Below are positions 49,225 through 55,903 of a DNA stretch of 64,000 nucleotides, in pieces. The stretch comes from Pyrococcus yayanosii CH1 (GTDB taxonomy: Archaea; Methanobacteriota_B; Thermococci; Thermococcales; Thermococcaceae): the NCBI RefSeq assembly GCF_000215995.1, contig NC_015680.1, positions 558,001 through 622,000 of the forward strand, read 5' to 3'. Made by a program: the position numbers and the translations under genes. The number at the start of each line of letters is the position of its first letter. Position 1 is the first letter of the stretch. Below the pieces are notes generated by a model that made no database searches, was not told the origin of the DNA, and saw nothing but the letters and a program-made list of their open reading frames with translations.

Positions 49225-50457
49225 TCAGATGTGCGTCGAACCATTCAGCAGTACTTCTCTATGCCGGAAGTAGTAGTGGGCAACCACGGCACTCATCAAG
49301 AGCCAAAGGGCAAGGCTAATCTCCCATGCCTCGAATATCTTCATCAGCGTGCCCACAACCGCGAGGCCAACTGGAGCAGATATGTTTATTAGGAGCGCCA
49401 GTGCCGAGAAAACCCTGCCACGAAGCTCGGTTGGTATGGCTCGCTGTATCTTCGCATTGAGGGGGACGTTTATGATTGCGTTGCTGGCACCCCAGAGGAT
49501 TGCCACACCGGCGAGCGTGAAGAACGCGGCCCACTTCGAAAGGTTCGTGTAAGGCGAAATGAGGGCTATGAACACCAGCATCATCGCCCCGTTGAAGGCC
49601 AAAGCCTTGAAGAACAGCCTTCCCGGGTTCTTCAGTTTAACCGCTATCAGCAGGTTGCCAAGGAGCATCCCACCCATGAATGCGCTCTGGAGGAGGCCAA
49701 ACTGCCGACTTGAGAACTTTAGCACTTCTCTAAATGCGTAAGGCATCAGCACCATGCCAAACGGCTGGCCGAGGGCGTTCATAAAGAGCGCGAAGCTCAT
49801 AAGAACCATGAGATATCTGCTGGAGCGCAGGAAGGTGATGCCCTCGCGTATGTCTTCAATGACCTGCCGAATACTTTCAAGCTGCCTTGTCTTCCACTCG
49901 TACCTTATGAACGCTTCGAACAGCCCCGAACCGAAGAAGCTGACGGCGTTTATGAGGAGGGCAAGTCTTATTCCGCCGATTGCATAAATAACACCGCCGA
50001 GGGCCGGACCGACGAGCCTCGCTACAATTGAAAAGGACGAAACGACCGAGTTGGCCCTCTCGAGTTCCCTCTCTTCGACGAGGTCTGGAAACATGGCACC
50101 CGTCGCGGCTCCAAAGAACGTTCCCATAATGGCCATGACTACCTGAACAGCCAGCAGTTCGTAGATGTCGAGCAAATCAAAGGTTATGACCCCAAACAGC
50201 AGGACGCCCCTGAGTAGGTCGAGGCCAACCATCAACGTCTTCCTATTGTACCTATCACCGATTACGCCGGCGAAGGGCATGAATATTAGGGAGGGGATTA
50301 CATCGGCCAAAACAAAGAGGCTCATCATGGCACCGCTGTGCGTCTTATCGAGGACGTATAAGGGTAGGGCAACTTCCTGAACAGCCCAGCCAAGCTGGGA
50401 GATGAACCTTCCGATAGCGAAGAGCCAGAAGTTCCGGCCCAACTTAGCGCCGAGCAT
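49225..50457 (-). CDS. MFS transporter, macrolide-efflux-like
   Basis: A 410-residue, 12-helix permease of the MFS_3 type (like EntS and macrolide exporters). It starts MLGAKLGRNFWLFAIGRFIS. GVIGDRYNRKTLMVGLDLLRG near residue 60 is motif A. Substrate is likely a hydrophobic compound leaving the cell, by family. It lies downstream of the DUF4097 operon with a 63-base AT-rich gap that may hold its own promoter. Confidence 0.87.
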   Translation of the reverse strand: MLGAKLGRNFWLFAIGRFISQLGWAVQEVALPLYVLDKTHSGAMMSLFVLADVIPSLIFMPFAGVIGDRYNRKTLMVGLDLLRGVLLFGVITFDLLDIYELLAVQVVMAIMGTFFGAATGAMFPDLVEERELERANSVVSSFSIVARLVGPALGGVIYAIGGIRLALLINAVSFFGSGLFEAFIRYEWKTRQLESIRQVIEDIREGITFLRSSRYLMVLMSFALFMNALGQPFGMVLMPYAFREVLKFSSRQFGLLQSAFMGGMLLGNLLIAVKLKNPGRLFFKALAFNGAMMLVFIALISPYTNLSKWAAFFTLAGVAILWGASNAIINVPLNAKIQRAIPTELRGRVFSALALLINISAPVGLAVVGTLMKIFEAWEISLALWLLMSAVVAHYYFRHREVLLNGSTHI

Positions 50458-50520: not shown

Positions 50521-51183
50521 TTAAATCAGTTCAACCCTTACATCACCATTCACAGTGCTGACCTTAACCCTGAATTCCCCCGTTCCTATAACCGGCTCGT
50601 CCGGGTCTATGCCGACAAACTTGACGTCTCCGCTGACTCTCTTGATGATTATCCTGGCATCGCAGAACTCGGTCAAGCGAAGCGTTATGTCTCCGTTAAC
50701 GCAGCTTACCTCGACATCCCCCTCAAGCTCCTCAATGGTAAGCTCGATTTCCCCGTTCACGGTTTTTACTTGAAGCGGTCCGGCGACCGTTAGATGGGCC
50801 CTTATCCCACCGTTCACGGAGCTGAGCTTTTCGGCCTCGCAGTTCTCTATGCTTATTTCACCGTTTACCGTCGTGACGTCCCCAAAGCACGCGCCTCTAG
50901 CCTTGAGCTCTCCGTTCACATTTCTGGCCCTTACCAAAACGCTCCGTGGAATCCTCATCTCTATTTCGGCCCAGCCGCCTAATGACTTCTCGAACAGGCC
51001 TAGCACCCTTCTCTTCTTCGGTTCCTCCCTGATTATGAGTTTACTTCCCTTCTGCTCGACTTCAACGTTTGCCTCGCCGTGGACGGTGTAGTTCACCTCG
51101 ACGTGGTCGTTTTCCCAGCCCTCTATCTCAATCCGACCATTGGTGGCCCTTATCTCAACTTCCCGGACGTTTTCAAACTTCAT
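50521..51183 (-). CDS. DUF4097-type beta-repeat protein A
   Basis: A 220-residue protein beginning MKFENVREVEIRATNGRIEIEGW. It has repeated VNGE/VNGD turns (NVNGELK, TVNGEISI, SVNGGIRA, TVNGEIEL, CVNGDITL, TVNGDVRV), the pattern of a right-handed beta-helix as in DUF4097/DUF2807 proteins. No signal peptide or membrane segment is visible, so it is probably cytoplasmic. ATG 51183 follows GGGGTGAGC and overlaps the stop region of the next gene upstream. Confidence 0.82.
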   Translation of the reverse strand: MKFENVREVEIRATNGRIEIEGWENDHVEVNYTVHGEANVEVEQKGSKLIIREEPKKRRVLGLFEKSLGGWAEIEMRIPRSVLVRARNVNGELKARGACFGDVTTVNGEISIENCEAEKLSSVNGGIRAHLTVAGPLQVKTVNGEIELTIEELEGDVEVSCVNGDITLRLTEFCDARIIIKRVSGDVKFVGIDPDEPVIGTGEFRVKVSTVNGDVRVELI

Positions 51184-51829
51184 CAAGCTCACCCCACGTG
51201 TCAACGATAACAACGCCTTTCACGCTGGAAATTTTAACTCTATGATCACCGCTCCCGAGGAGCCTTCCGGAGTTTACAACCACCCCTCCGCCCTGCTGGA
51301 CAGTTTCTATCACGGCATCGCAATCCTCGGGAAGTTTCAGGGTTATTGAGCCCATCACAGCTAAGACTTCAAGGTCTCCCCCAAGCTCCAGTATCTTAAG
51401 CTCAAGGTTCCCCATAGAAACGGTTACCTCTGCCTCCTCCCGGATGTACATGGACCCTTTAACCTTGGACGGGCCTACGGAGGGGCTTTTGACTTCGCAT
51501 TCCTCAAGCTCTGCGGTGGCTTCGCCGATTGCAATGGAATCAAATCTTGTTCTCTTAGCTTTAAGCGAGCCTCTCTTCATGCTTCCTTCGATACAGAAGT
51601 CATCTGGAATCCTCATGCTGAGCCTCGCGCGTTCCTTCTCTTTCTTTAACAGGTTCTTGAGCTTCCAGCCGGTAGAGGTCAGCACCTTAAGGGTACTCCC
51701 ATCTCGTTTTAATGTAAACGCATCTTCGGGCTCGACATAAACGTGAACCGTTCCATCTTCAGAGGGCAGTATTTGCACGTCCGTATCAATGAGCTTTATC
51801 CAGACCTTCTCGATGCCTTCAAATCTCAC
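51173..51829 (-). CDS. DUF4097-like beta-repeat protein B
   Basis: A 218-residue paralogue of the neighbouring DUF4097 protein. It begins MRFEGIEKVWIK, matching the MKFE start of its partner, and has beta repeats with shorter turns (SMKRGSLKA, KVKGSMYI, VMGSITLK, SVKGVVIV). GTG 51829 is preferred because GGAGG lies seven bases before it; GTG 51835 abuts that site. It overlaps the partner gene by 11 bases. Confidence 0.75.
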   Translation of the reverse strand: MRFEGIEKVWIKLIDTDVQILPSEDGTVHVYVEPEDAFTLKRDGSTLKVLTSTGWKLKNLLKKEKERARLSMRIPDDFCIEGSMKRGSLKAKRTRFDSIAIGEATAELEECEVKSPSVGPSKVKGSMYIREEAEVTVSMGNLELKILELGGDLEVLAVMGSITLKLPEDCDAVIETVQQGGGVVVNSGRLLGSGDHRVKISSVKGVVIVDTWGELDEV

Positions 51830-51860
51830 GGCCACCCCTCCGAATAACAGGGAGACCCCA

Positions 51861-53147
51861 CTAGATATGACCCATCAACTCCTCGAGGAGCTCCTTCACG
51901 CGTTTGTTGAGCCTTGCCCTGTCCACACCGAGGCCCTCTATGAGCTCGGCGCTTTGCTCCTCCACTATCTCCTTCGCCTTCTCGATGACGAGCTGGCATG
52001 CTTCGGCATCTTCTATAGTGTGGATTTTGCCACCCACCCTTATGCGAACCTTTCCATCCTTAGCCGAAATCACAACATCTTCAATGCGTATCTTCGCCCT
52101 GCCTCTCCCCACGGTAATTGAAACGTCACCGGCTTTCAAGGATACGTGGTCCTTACCAAGGGACAGGCTCTCTCCCCCGCTCCTGTAGGTTACCCTCTCA
52201 CCGCTGACCTCTATGGAGTAATCTTCCGTCTGAATCCTCAACCTGTCGCCGATCTTCGTGAGCTGGAAGCCGTTGGTGAGCTCCCTAATCGTGAGCATTT
52301 CGCTTGGTGGCCTCTCCGGATGTCCTTCGCGTATCCTTATTGGCCCAATTCTGACTTCCTCCCCACTTGGTGTCTCGATGACCTCAAGGAAGGGTAGCTT
52401 AACGTACTCGAAGTCTTCCCCCTCGTAAACCTTTAGGAAGCCCAAGTCGACAACGGTGTCTGCTTTGTTCTTCTTGTAGAGCCTATCATGATGCATGAGG
52501 CGGTTGGCCATCTCCACGAAGGCTGGATCCGGAGAAGTTTTCTTTCCGACGATGCTGAGTGAAGTCCAGACCGCGATAGGTGGTATTAGCTTCTTCCTCA
52601 CCGTGCCAAGTGGGGTCTCGGCCACAACCTCAACCGAGCCATCTATTACCCATCCCACCATCCTCCGACCGAACTTCACGGGATACGCCTTTCCTCTGCC
52701 TACTAGCTCCACATTCCCAAAGTGCGCCCCGGTGAACTCGTATGCCTTGCTCTCGACCTTGGCCTTTATTTCACCCTTATCGAACTTGGCCACCAGCAGA
52801 GCTGCTATGGCAAGCACGACGGCATAGGCGAAGGCCGTTCCCGCGGTTATCGGGAAGCCCTCTGGGAGACCGAGCCACTTTCCGAAGAACAGGAAGACCG
52901 CTATTAAGAATGCGGCCTTCGCGAGGGCGAAGATTACACCACTAACGGTTACGCCGAACCACCTGCCGACGCCGAGCAACTCGATGATGACTATGAGCGC
53001 GATTATCGCCCATACCATGTACTCGTTGTAGGCTTCGAGCCTGAGCCATCCCTTGAACAGCCAGAGGACTATCAAGAGAGCTGTCAAACCTTTCAGGTAG
53101 TCCCTAATCCTAAACCTCAAAAAACTCTCCTCATAATAGAGGCTCAT
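51861..53147 (-). CDS. Membrane protein with C-terminal beta-repeat domain
   Basis: A 428-residue protein with four or five helices in the first 130 residues, then a soluble part. Residues about 285-390 show regular short beta strands (GDRLRIQTEDYSIEVSGERV, then VSLKAGDVSITVG, KIRIEDVVISAKDG), similar in style to the DUF4097 partners. A helical tail (about 395-428) follows. No known family recognised. Its ATG overlaps the regulator stop (ATGA), so it is translated with the ArsR-type gene. Confidence 0.8.
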   Translation of the reverse strand: MSLYYEESFLRFRIRDYLKGLTALLIVLWLFKGWLRLEAYNEYMVWAIIALIVIIELLGVGRWFGVTVSGVIFALAKAAFLIAVFLFFGKWLGLPEGFPITAGTAFAYAVVLAIAALLVAKFDKGEIKAKVESKAYEFTGAHFGNVELVGRGKAYPVKFGRRMVGWVIDGSVEVVAETPLGTVRKKLIPPIAVWTSLSIVGKKTSPDPAFVEMANRLMHHDRLYKKNKADTVVDLGFLKVYEGEDFEYVKLPFLEVIETPSGEEVRIGPIRIREGHPERPPSEMLTIRELTNGFQLTKIGDRLRIQTEDYSIEVSGERVTYRSGGESLSLGKDHVSLKAGDVSITVGRGRAKIRIEDVVISAKDGKVRIRVGGKIHTIEDAEACQLVIEKAKEIVEEQSAELIEGLGVDRARLNKRVKELLEELMGHI

Positions 53148-53548
53148 TCTTCCACCTCCCCGAGGGCGGTTATTATGGTGAGCAGGCGGAGGAGCAGGCG
53201 GCCGTTCTCCGTTATCACGTACTTATCCTCACTCCTAACCATCCCAGTTCTTTTAAGGAGCTTGAGATGGTGCGAAACCGTGGGGCTCTCAACCCCTAAG
53301 GCCTCCTTTATCTCCTTGAAGCCCATCGGCCTTTCCGAGAGCATCTTTAGTATCCTAATCCTGTCCGGGTTTGCGAGCGCCTTTAAGGTCTTGGCGGATT
53401 TCTCCTCGTCGAGCTCGGGCAAGGTTTCGAGTCTCTTCCTTAGTAGGGCTTTTATGGAGAGCATAATTTCGTCAACTGGGTCTATGCTCTTCTCAAGGAG
53501 CTCCAGCCGCCTCTTGAGTTCCTCCAGCTGTGCCCTGAGATCCTCCAT
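53144..53548 (-). CDS. ArsR-type winged-helix regulator with N-terminal coil
   Basis: A 134-residue regulator. Residues 1-25 form a charged coil (LRAQLEELKRRLELLEKS); the winged helix starts at LKALANPDRIRILKML near 60, with recognition helix SPTVSHHLKLLKRTG. No metal-binding cysteine motif is visible, so the signal is not obviously a metal. It heads the operon of the membrane and DUF4097 genes. GGTGGTAAC precedes the ATG. Repeats around its own promoter suggest autoregulation. Confidence 0.87.
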   Translation of the reverse strand: MEDLRAQLEELKRRLELLEKSIDPVDEIMLSIKALLRKRLETLPELDEEKSAKTLKALANPDRIRILKMLSERPMGFKEIKEALGVESPTVSHHLKLLKRTGMVRSEDKYVITENGRLLLRLLTIITALGEVEE

Positions 53549-53553
53549 GTTAC

Positions 53554-53648
53554 CACCTGGTACAGACTTTTGTAGTATGATTTTCTGTACCTATATGGGG
53601 TCGAAGGTATATAAAAAATTTACCCATCACCTGGTACTACATACTACA
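53554..53648. promoter_or_regulatory. Repeated operator-like sites around the regulator promoter
   Basis: CACCTGGTAC occurs twice in the same direction (53554-53563 and 53628-53637). TGTAGTATG (53571-53579) is exactly complementary to CATACTACA (53640-53648). GGTACAG (53559-53565) pairs with CTGTACC (53585-53591). These lie on both sides of the TATA box at 53607-53620. Confidence 0.6.
53605..53622 (-). promoter_or_regulatory. TATA box for the ArsR/membrane/DUF4097 operon
   Basis: The minus strand reads TTTTTTATATACC about 65 bases upstream of the regulator start, between the two copies of the CACCTGGTAC repeat. Confidence 0.6.
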
Positions 53649-54001
53649 TTCGATTATAGTTCCCCTAATTCTAATCAAGCAATATCATACTTTTTGATTG
53701 ATATTTTGTCTTTGTCATTTTTGTCATATTACCATTTGGCAATGCTATTTTGGTAGTAAGAATTCATCCAAATTTCGGTTTAATGAGCCAAACTGAGACT
53801 ATAGGAAAAGGAGATAAGTTAAGTGTTACTTATTATACCCCCAATTTTGACAATTCGCCTTTAAATTTTTCACATTAACTTTTCTACTAGACTTGGTATT
53901 TTTACTTGATAGAAATGTTTTGTTTTTCTTTTAATTCTTAACTTTCTGTCTCTATATCATGCCCCAACTCTTCTGAAGCTAATTTAGTATTAAATTCTTT
54001 T
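53649..54001. other. AT-rich non-coding edge of the restriction island
   Basis: About 350 bases with no credible gene on either strand. Long T runs on the plus strand and stop codons in all frames are seen. It marks a sharp change from the near-even composition to the left and may contain decayed island sequence. No direct repeat or tRNA target was found here. Confidence 0.5.
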
Positions 54002-54676
54002 TCATAATCTCGGGCACATGTTTATTATTTCATAATAATCTGTATTAAATTCAATCTTAGTTCTCAGCTCTAAGTAATATAAGTCATATAAATTCCACCA
54101 TGTTACTCGCCAGCATATACACTCCGGTGGAATTTCGGGGGGCCGTGGGCACTTTTCAGCCCTTTCAATCTTAACTAACACCATGATATGTGGAGCGTCA
54201 TTTCGTATTTTATAGCGAGTAAGCCTTGGACGGACTCGGACATTAAATTTAACATCTCCATTGGCTTCCCTAATTGGAACAACAGAAATTACTTTGCCGG
54301 GACTTACATAGAAATCTCTCGGGGAACGCATGTCTTCTCGGGCAGTTGCTTTTACTTCGATATATCCTATGGGATTTCCTGTAGATGAGTCTATAATTTC
54401 AATATCCGGATATCCTGAGCTGGATAACCACTTGGCTTGCAATCTCGACGAAACTGTATTAAATTGTCTAACAATACTCTCCTCTAGACATGGAGTACTT
54501 GGACAAGTATTATTACTAACATCATTTGGACGTTTAGCATAGAATATCATATTCCTGATATTATCCAAACTACATTTGAGATATGAAATCATATCACGAT
54601 GGAGAGGATCGTTCTTAGTATCTATTGGGATAATTCTATGTCCCGTTATGCTATAAATTACATCCCGTAGGTACAT
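54002..54676 (-). CDS. Predicted type II restriction endonuclease, PD-(D/E)xK fold
   Basis: A 224-residue AT-rich gene. The nuclease core is clear: PD at residues 90-91 and EVK at 107-109, separated by a 15-residue beta hairpin (PD...GYIEVKA). A helical N-terminal part and a Cys/Trp-rich tail (CICWRVTWWN) may recognise DNA. GGTGGTTCAAG precedes the ATG. It is divergent from a gene pair encoding an AbrB-type protein and a DNA methylase, so it is very likely the cognate restriction enzyme. Target sequence unknown. Confidence 0.78.
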   Translation of the reverse strand: MYLRDVIYSITGHRIIPIDTKNDPLHRDMISYLKCSLDNIRNMIFYAKRPNDVSNNTCPSTPCLEESIVRQFNTVSSRLQAKWLSSSGYPDIEIIDSSTGNPIGYIEVKATAREDMRSPRDFYVSPGKVISVVPIREANGDVKFNVRVRPRLTRYKIRNDAPHIMVLVKIERAEKCPRPPEIPPECICWRVTWWNLYDLYYLELRTKIEFNTDYYEIINMCPRL

Positions 54677-54723
54677 CTTGAACCACCGAATTGTACATTT
54701 AATTATAATGGGTTTTTAAGGCC

Positions 54724-54743
54724 TTTCTGAAAAATTTCAGAAA
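54724..54743. promoter_or_regulatory. Operator palindrome 1 of the restriction island
   Basis: A perfect palindrome TTTCTGAAA-AA-TTTCAGAAA in the divergent promoter region, directly upstream of the TATA box for the AbrB-methylase pair and close to the likely promoter of the nuclease gene. Confidence 0.65.
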
Positions 54744-54744
54744 A

Positions 54745-54754
54745 GTTTAAATAT
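54745..54754 (+). promoter_or_regulatory. TATA box for the AbrB-methylase pair
   Basis: GTTTAAATAT is centred about 35 bases before the AbrB ATG and is flanked on both sides by palindromes of the same design. Confidence 0.6.
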
Positions 54755-54769
54755 TCTAAAAATTTAGAA
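54754..54769. promoter_or_regulatory. Operator palindrome 2 of the restriction island
   Basis: A perfect TTCTAAA-AA-TTTAGAA palindrome with the same TTCT...AGAA edges and AA centre as palindrome 1. The centres are 28 bases apart. It overlaps the region where transcription of the AbrB gene should begin. Confidence 0.65.
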
Positions 54770-54784
54770 AATCTGGGTGATAGA

Positions 54785-54946
54785 ATGGGAAAAATTTTGG
54801 GAGTTTCGGTTCTCTCAAGTAAAGGCACTGTAACCATTCCTAAAAAGGTAAGAGAGTTCCTAAGGTTATCAAGAGGCGATTTAGTTGTTTTCAAACTTAC
54901 AGATAATGGAGAGATCGTAATAAAAAGAGGTGATAATGTTGAGTGA
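54785..54946 (+). CDS. AbrB/SpoVT-type DNA-binding protein, putative controller of the restriction system
   Basis: A 53-residue protein ([12 protein letters not shown], then [16 protein letters not shown] and a GDLVVFKLT strand) with the swapped-hairpin AbrB fold pattern. GGGTGAT precedes the ATG. Its last codons overlap the start of the methylase gene, so the two are co-translated. In classical systems a small HTH controller occupies this position; here an AbrB-type protein seems to take that place, with twin palindromes as likely binding sites. The regulatory role is inference. Confidence 0.75.
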
Positions 54947-55847
54947 GAAATATAACAAAATATATCACATGGATTGTCTTAAGGGAATGCGCGAATTATT
55001 GGAGGATAAAGAAGTTGACGTTGTAGTGACGTCGCCTCCATATAACATAGGGATTAAATACAACAAGTATAAAGACAACATCCCACGAGAAAAATATTTA
55101 AAATGGATCGAGAAAGTTGGAAAGGAAATAAAACGAGTTCTAAAAGACGATGGTTCATTCTTTTTAAATATAGGATATACAAACAAAGATCCATGGATTG
55201 CATGGGAAGTAGTATTCAAGTTAAGAAAGCATTTTGTTCTTCAAAATGTTATTCATTGGGTAAAATCTATTGCTATTCAGAAAGAAGATGTTGGGAATTA
55301 TCCAAATATTCTGGGAGACATTGCAGTTGGACATTATAAGCCAGTTAATAGTAAAAGATATTTAAGCATAATGCATGAATACGTATTTCACTTTACAAAA
55401 AATGGTGATGTTGAACTTGATAAATTAGCCATTGGCGTTCCTTATCAGGATAAAAGCAATATAGGGAGATGGAAGAGCGCAAAAAAAGATCTTCGAGATA
55501 GAGGTAATGTATGGTTTATACCTTATGAAACAATAAAGTCTAAAGAAAAAGAGAGGCCCCATCCAGCAACGTTTCCTACAAAACTTCCCGAAATGTGTAT
55601 TAAGTTGCATGGATTACATAGAACAAACTTAGTATTAGATCCGTTTATGGGTCTTGGAAGTACTGCAATTGCCGCGATTAGGCTTGGAGTAAACTACATA
55701 GGATTCGAAATTGATGAATATTATATAAAAATCGCCGAAGAGAGGATAAAAAGAGAAATTGAAAAAATTAAAGCTGCTGGCCATAACATTAAGGATAGGA
55801 GAGTAACATTGGATAAATATCTTAACGCGTTGAAATATATGAAGTGA
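54936..55847 (+). CDS. DNA methyltransferase, beta class, probably cytosine-N4
   Basis: A 303-residue methylase. Catalytic motif TSPPY at residues 32-36 comes first and the SAM-binding motif DPFMGLGST near 234 last, the beta-class order. TSPPY favours cytosine-N4 methylation, though adenine-N6 cannot be excluded. Start is ATG 54936; GTG 54930 and TTG 54939 are alternatives around the same GGTGAT site. Codons are AT-rich, unlike the flanking genes, suggesting recent acquisition. It protects against the divergent nuclease. Confidence 0.85.
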
Positions 55848-55903
55848 CAAAAGCAGAAGTAATTATGTTCTCAAGACATTATCATACAACATGAGCTGAA
55901 ACT

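Follow-up and report, generated by a model that had tools for sequence, protein, structure and literature searches.

The window analysed here is a stretch of 64,000 nucleotides from the genome of Pyrococcus yayanosii CH1 (NC_015680.1, positions 558,001 to 622,000), and the locus described below lies on its reverse strand. The genes and promoter elements are listed in the order in which they would be transcribed, with coordinates relative to the window and the basis of each assignment in brackets.

53608..53617, minus strand: promoter TATA box (TATA-like motif, TTTATATAY or close to it, in the same position in 49 upstream regions)
53560..53590, minus strand: putative ArsR operator, a 31-bp nested palindrome (consensus scan, shuffles and profile R1)
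53144..53548, minus strand: ArsR-type winged-helix regulator, 134 aa (Pfam HTH_5, NCBIfam NF033788)
51861..53147, minus strand: membrane protein MP, 428 aa (homologues in the order; AlphaFold2 model)
51836..51860, minus strand: spacer with a short micro-ORF relic (sequence reading and the micro-ORF of relatives)
51173..51835, minus strand: DB, a divergent DUF4097/Toastrack protein, 220 aa (hhalign to DA)
50521..51183, minus strand: DA, a DUF4097/Toastrack protein, 220 aa from its ATG (Pfam DUF4097)
49225..50457, minus strand: MFS exporter, 410 aa, TIGR00900 family (TIGR00900 score above the cut-off)

The tight coupling of four genes reported in an initial annotation of the window was found again, with a 4-nt ATGA overlap between the ArsR and MP genes, a gap of 25 nt from MP to DB and an 11-nt overlap between the DB and DA genes. 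The MFS exporter gene, which starts 63 nt behind DA, and the palindromic operator had been missed there.

The MP gene is carried by 70 of 94 genomes of the order Thermococcales, including 60 of the 74 well-complete ones, and 49 of the 70 loci, from Thermococcaceae, were fetched and surveyed. In all 49, MP is immediately preceded by an ArsR gene and followed by one or more MFS genes, and this linkage, which is far beyond chance, shows that the homologues are not scattered over the genomes. As an MFS gene is found behind in every locus, the operon unit is ArsR-MP-DUF4097 (0-2)-MFS (1-2), and the single regulated module first proposed is both upheld and extended by the MFS gene and the operator. 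Between MP and MFS, one DUF4097 gene is found in 35 loci, two in 13 (L085 among them, with a broken second copy) and none in L072 only; DUF4097 is therefore dispensable in the operon. Two MFS genes are present in 12 of the 49 loci. The best MFS identity falls below 65% in 16 of the 128 locus pairs in which MP is more than 80% identical, indicating that the exporter varies faster than the sensor part and is exchanged while the latter is kept. A divergent AEC transporter was considered as a fixed partner and rejected, as it is present in just 18 of the 49 loci.

A DUF4097 query matched 85 of the 94 genomes of the order, not always in this operon, and all 74 well-complete ones, whereas the Toastrack domain is described as sporadic in archaea in the covered part of PMC11237479. 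The only DUF4097 gene in genera g4 and g6, and in the greater part of g5, is a distant copy in another setting. Assignment of the DUF4097 genes of these three genera to the same system was rejected, since no ArsR, MP or MFS homologue was found in 11 loci (L111-L121, which include one locus of G002, a genus g2 genome; neighbours read in 8 of the 11). A scan of 84,980 species genomes with two short peptide patterns, which would miss distant members, returned 17 loci, all in Thermococcaceae or Thermococci MAGs.

The regulator matches Pfam HTH_5 (6e-14, 52.1 bits) and the metalloregulator model NCBIfam NF033788 (1.2e-17, 63.4 bits against a cut-off of 55), and has the winged helix of the ArsR/SmtB family. 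It is preceded by an N-terminal extension of ~50 aa that is coiled-coil-like, with a heptad-like pattern rich in Leu, Glu and Lys. Cys is absent from the gene proper in all 49 aligned ArsR sequences (three rows show Cys in an upstream over-extension only), hence no Cys-based metal site is present, and no His was seen when the C-terminal helix was read. The lack of a visible metal site pointed out in the initial annotation is thereby confirmed. Like the ArsR/SmtB metalloregulators, it combines a winged-helix fold with an operator before its own operon and an exporter gene; however, it differs from them in having no Cys, a long N-terminal extension and a permanent membrane partner gene.

The palindrome in the window reads GTACAGA...TGTACTACA...TCTGTAC and is separated by 11 nt from the start codon of ArsR. 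A nested palindrome, GTACAGAAAAnTGTACTACAAAAnTCTGTAC, is nearly invariant upstream of ArsR in the 49 loci, where the elements follow in the order TATA-like box, palindrome, ribosome-binding site. The window site has two mismatches to the consensus, and 100 shuffles of the window gave 0 matches. With up to three mismatches, the palindrome was found in 69 of the 94 genomes and a reversed control in none. A profile (R1) was then built from 36 distinct sites of the 49 loci, such that recovery of those sites is by construction; it identified 74 sites at E <= 1.8e-8 in 70 of the 94 genomes, the next best match having an E value of 0.02. The R1-positive genomes are exactly the 70 carriers of MP and include none of the other 24, and 21 of the 70 took no part in building the profile. 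As the palindrome sits at the expected start site, bound ArsR would block the polymerase, as this position suggests.

Three strong R1 sites lie beyond the operon among the 94 genomes, all of them before exporters. In G017 and in G045 the extra site precedes an ABC exporter (the G045 gene is truncated at the end of its contig and was identified by reading), and in G037 it precedes a small gene, a TIGR00900-type MFS gene and a gene for an RDD protein. Two further sites (G060:C41 and G057:C20) belong to fragments of the same locus at contig ends. With only these three strong sites outside the operon, a wide regulon in each genome was rejected.

MP has no Pfam match at the cut-off and constitutes a family that appears unrelated to DA and DB, comparison with their profiles giving hhalign probabilities of 2.5% and 0.7%. 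In the AlphaFold2 model (mean pLDDT 73), 3-4 transmembrane helices are followed by a beta domain, a single-layer beta meander (residues 284-378; pLDDT about 80-93) and C-terminal helices (381-425); the first helices span residues 3-34, 42-58, 68-92 and 102-122, ahead of the beta region, and the stretch 220-281 is poorly modelled. In the hydropathy profile three membrane segments stand out clearly and TM1 is weak (maximum 1.28), and the topology is based on the model and this profile together; charge counts would fit a cytoplasmic location of both ends. The structural neighbours are single-layer sheets, among them the CPAP G-box (Z 8.2, rmsd 4.5, 139 aligned) and OspA (about 6), a likeness of the model that is middling and not proof of kinship. 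A Foldseek search with the model gave nothing at E <= 0.001, and no Toastrack entry was among the structural neighbours displayed for MP, which in itself excludes nothing. A short homologue match to nfeD was not significant (E 0.16). No Pfam match to PspC or LiaI-LiaF-TM was found in 21 MP members at E 0.1, an absent HMM match being weak evidence. MP likewise has no DUF1700/HAAS match in Pfam, and with a regulator of the ArsR type the two genes are not a HAAS-PadR pair.

DA was assigned to DUF4097 (PF13349; 2.5e-16, 60.2 bits against a cut-off of 22.9), and its model, with a mean pLDDT of 94.7, matches Toastrack structures in Foldseek (best 4qrk, E 1.1e-8; 4opw, E 2.8e-4) and also the similar adhesin-like 3pet. 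The VIA Z score is 12.4 for both 4qrk and 4opw and 12.4 to 13.2 across the seven top-ranking rows; a sequence search of the PDB with DA gave no match, whereas the fold search did. DB scores just under the cut-off for DUF4097 (4.7e-4, 20.0 bits against 22.9) and matches DA over its length with an hhalign probability of 99.9% (E 1.2e-36); DB is therefore classified only as a homologue of DA. No signal peptide was seen in DA or DB by reading. The initial annotation had grouped MP, DB and DA as three products with the same beta-repeat pattern. This stands for DA and DB, which form one fold family, but not for MP, so that the folds appear unrelated as far as MP is concerned and are related between the other two. 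MP as a third DUF4097 protein was accordingly rejected, the profile comparison and the model with its single-layer-sheet neighbours in the PDB both speaking against it.

The product of the last gene matches TIGR00900 (5.3e-100, 335.3 bits against a cut-off of 319.6), and is predicted from this match to be an exporter of the H+ antiporter family, drug type. Expression data that may bear on it are available for Thermococcus gammatolerans (G018). SurR, designated tg1303 in that species (PMC3407056), is located at 1,228,539, and counting genes from it puts the MFS gene of the operon at 1357. An anchor acetyltransferase, identified by reading and expected at tg1315, counts to 1314 and is thus off by one; for this reason the MFS gene of the operon is most likely tg1358, matched by position. 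The gene tg1358 is annotated as 'drug antiporter, MFS' in PMC3407056, and Table 4 of that paper gives +41.38 for Cd, +32.05 for Zn and +9.10 for Ni, with -1.50 for heat shock and 1.11 for gamma. Through the positional match, the literature thus supports a pump that is induced by Cd, Zn and Ni. The Cd-regulated ArsR genes named in the covered text of PMC3407056 are tg0841, tg0849 and tg1583, and tg1359 to tg1361 do not appear in its main text.

A profile search of the phylum (115 genomes) revealed relatives of MP in 11 genomes, which belong to three other families of the class; these proteins are about 515-560 aa long, and comparison of the profiles of the two groups gave an hhalign probability of 98.6% (E 8.6e-16) along most of their length. 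The 11 loci were fetched, and in 10 of the 10 that could be checked (L159 was left out, as its contig starts inside MP) an ArsR gene with an N-terminal extension is located just upstream, adjoining MP directly or one small zinc-ribbon gene away. Neither a DUF4097 nor an MFS gene was recognised by reading beside the pair in the nine loci with neighbours listed. As the pair is kept in three other families with neither of them seen beside it, ArsR and MP look like the older core, to which Toastrack and exporter genes would have been added later. The suggestion in the initial annotation that the signal reaches the regulator through its partner proteins is indirectly favoured by this retention and by the absence of Cys, and a relay from MP to ArsR is the part of it that we infer.

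Taken together, these features make it probable, if not assured, that the locus is an exporter operon under autorepression, with a sensor in the membrane as its gate. ArsR would bind the 31-bp palindrome over the start-site region downstream of the TATA box and keep RNA polymerase off; binding at this site and the resulting repression are inferred. MP would sense membrane stress, caused by toxic metal ions or by membrane-active or drug-like compounds, and its cytoplasmic beta meander and C-terminal helices would serve as a docking site for the N-terminal coiled coil of ArsR; the Toastrack proteins, also cytoplasmic, would act as a scaffold or tuner. Release of ArsR from the DNA would then yield more of the sensor parts and of the MFS pump, which would remove the agent.

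Many small autorepressors of pump genes sense their own ligand directly, and ArsR could recognise a toxic compound itself, in the manner of the MarR- or PadR-type multidrug regulators, leaving MP and the Toastrack proteins as co-regulated membrane protection outside the signal path. The operator is indeed placed where a plain repressor would bind. However, ArsR and MP are paired in three other families without a pump or Toastrack seen beside them, and direct sensing is considered a serious but rather unlikely explanation.

A response of the PSP/Lia type, in which MP and Toastrack would repair the membrane and the MFS protein would be a secondary helper, comes close to the envelope-response module of the initial annotation. 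Toastrack proteins are partners of PSP/Lia systems (PMC11237479), the lltR operon of Listeria is likewise laid out as PadR, membrane protein and DUF4097 (PMC6624303), and the LiaG and LiaX models match DA weakly, LiaG also matching DB (6.1e-10, below the cut-off). However, no PspC or LiaF-type Pfam domain was found in MP, the extra operators precede exporters, and tg1358 is not induced by heat (PMC3407056, Table 4). An envelope response is thus possible as a general description, but the evidence points first to export, as a drug-type MFS gene is always the last gene, the extra operators stand before exporters and the one published induction identified is a response to Cd, Zn and Ni, heat having no such effect; repair of the membrane as the primary function appears improbable. 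The least probable reading is a metal-resistance operon in which the MFS protein would export Cd, Zn or Ni and ArsR would be a metal sensor with an unusual site, since the induction of tg1358 by these metals (PMC3407056) is set against the absence of Cys from all 49 ArsR sequences and of a visible His in the C-terminal helix, the drug-type TIGR00900 family of the pump and the extra site before an ABC exporter of the multidrug/peptide type.

The layout regulator, membrane protein, DUF4097 protein is already known from bacteria. In Listeria, the lltR operon encodes the PadR regulator lmo0599, the DUF1700 membrane protein lmo0600 and the DUF4097 protein lmo0601; the regulator represses its own operon, and the overexpression phenotype comes from the membrane protein, not the DUF4097 protein (PMC6624303). 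The gene order regulator, multi-spanning membrane protein, DUF4097 protein is shared, but the operon described here is archaeal, its regulator is ArsR instead of PadR, MP is of a family other than DUF1700, and the last gene encodes an exporter, which is not described for lltR in the covered text of PMC6624303. Bacterial Toastrack proteins are coupled to HTH proteins and transport, with HAAS-PadR systems among the PSP partners, and the neighbourhoods of a DNA-binding protein, a membrane protein and sometimes a transporter, for which a submembrane scaffold has been proposed, resemble the present one (PMC11237479). The words 'ArsR' and 'MFS' do not occur in that paper, and PSP systems of archaea were surveyed in PMC9239133. 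Departures from the known layout are the type of regulator, the family of MP, the exporter fixed as the last gene, the operator and the spread in archaea. Phr and SurR are ArsR-like winged-helix-turn-helix regulators of Thermococcales, and to our knowledge neither is paired with a membrane protein. The domain layout and motif described here differ from theirs, the SurR motif being GTTn3AAC (PMC12162507, PMC8595942). No published account of this operon was recognised among the papers listed by searches on DUF4097/Toastrack, archaeal ArsR and P. yayanosii transcriptomes, and the covered parts of the pressure-response literature on P. yayanosii, T. piezophilus and T. barophilus hold nothing on it.

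Taken by itself, the ArsR-MP pair may go beyond a variant of the known layout. One tentative view, which we hold as possible, is that it constitutes a signal system of archaea that has not been described before and that was ancestral in the class to which Thermococcales belong. In it, a polytopic MP with a single-layer beta meander would hold or release a coiled-coil ArsR repressor, and the Toastracks and an interchangeable exporter would have been recruited into it, as would, in many Thermococcus, a conserved GHERPLFDF micro-protein. Few archaea are known to have bacterial-style kinases or PSP circuits. How archaea convert membrane trouble into gene expression is nearly unknown, and this compact operon offers an entry: over most of an order it supplies a defined operator, a regulator with no metal site, a sensor-like family of membrane proteins that has no name yet, and a pump, by which heat-loving archaea may sense and expel harmful substances. 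Thermococcus hosts are genetically tractable, opening archaeal envelope and xenobiotic sensing to short experiments.

The micro-ORF is located between MP and the first DUF4097 gene and ends in a (GHE)RPLFDF-like sequence in 24 of the 49 loci, a count that includes one PLDF variant and from which one chance match (L063) was dropped. Across its PLFDF codons, pairwise changes were 203 synonymous to 39 non-synonymous (site numbers 130 to 500), against 13:202 and 22:223 in the other two frames, for 14 distinct sequences from 23 loci whose pairs are not independent; it is therefore likely to be coding. In the window the micro-ORF in the spacer has decayed, and the end of the relic, SEGW, matches the end of the ORF that is intact in relatives.

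The window sequence immediately upstream of the operon (53549-55900) is AT-rich, with a GC content of 0.339 versus 0.53 for the window, and includes the following gene:

54930-55847, N4/N6 DNA methyltransferase gene

A 224-aa ORF in the same stretch had no Pfam match. This stretch looks like a foreign, restriction-modification-like island. Of 49 loci, 18 have a divergent AEC-type transporter gene upstream of the operon; in one of them, L150, it lies around genome position 1280624.

Within the operon, the interval between the membrane protein gene and the first DUF4097 gene contains a conserved micro-ORF of ~25-45 codons with a GHERPLFDF-like end (loci L073, L077, L088, L095 and others), which is located near the next start codon or overlaps it. 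Reading of the sequences also showed, at the same position in many loci, a GC-rich hairpin with trailing T residues. In two of the other families with relatives of the membrane protein, a small zinc-ribbon-like gene (CPxCGxK...CxCG) lies between arsR and the gene for the relative (loci L151-L155).

An additional copy of the putative ArsR operator was found in locus L123:

L123:5995-8373, additional operator copy and downstream genes

This copy precedes a small ORF whose product starts with MFDFEALKF, together with genes for a small membrane protein, for an MFS exporter and for a protein of the RDD family.

The DUF4097 genes of loci L111-L121 form a distinct stand-alone lineage, found in genera g4, g5 and g6 and in genome G002, and in several of the loci read these genes adjoin a conserved gene with a RGKVVGSEIPRFKHRWFG-like start.
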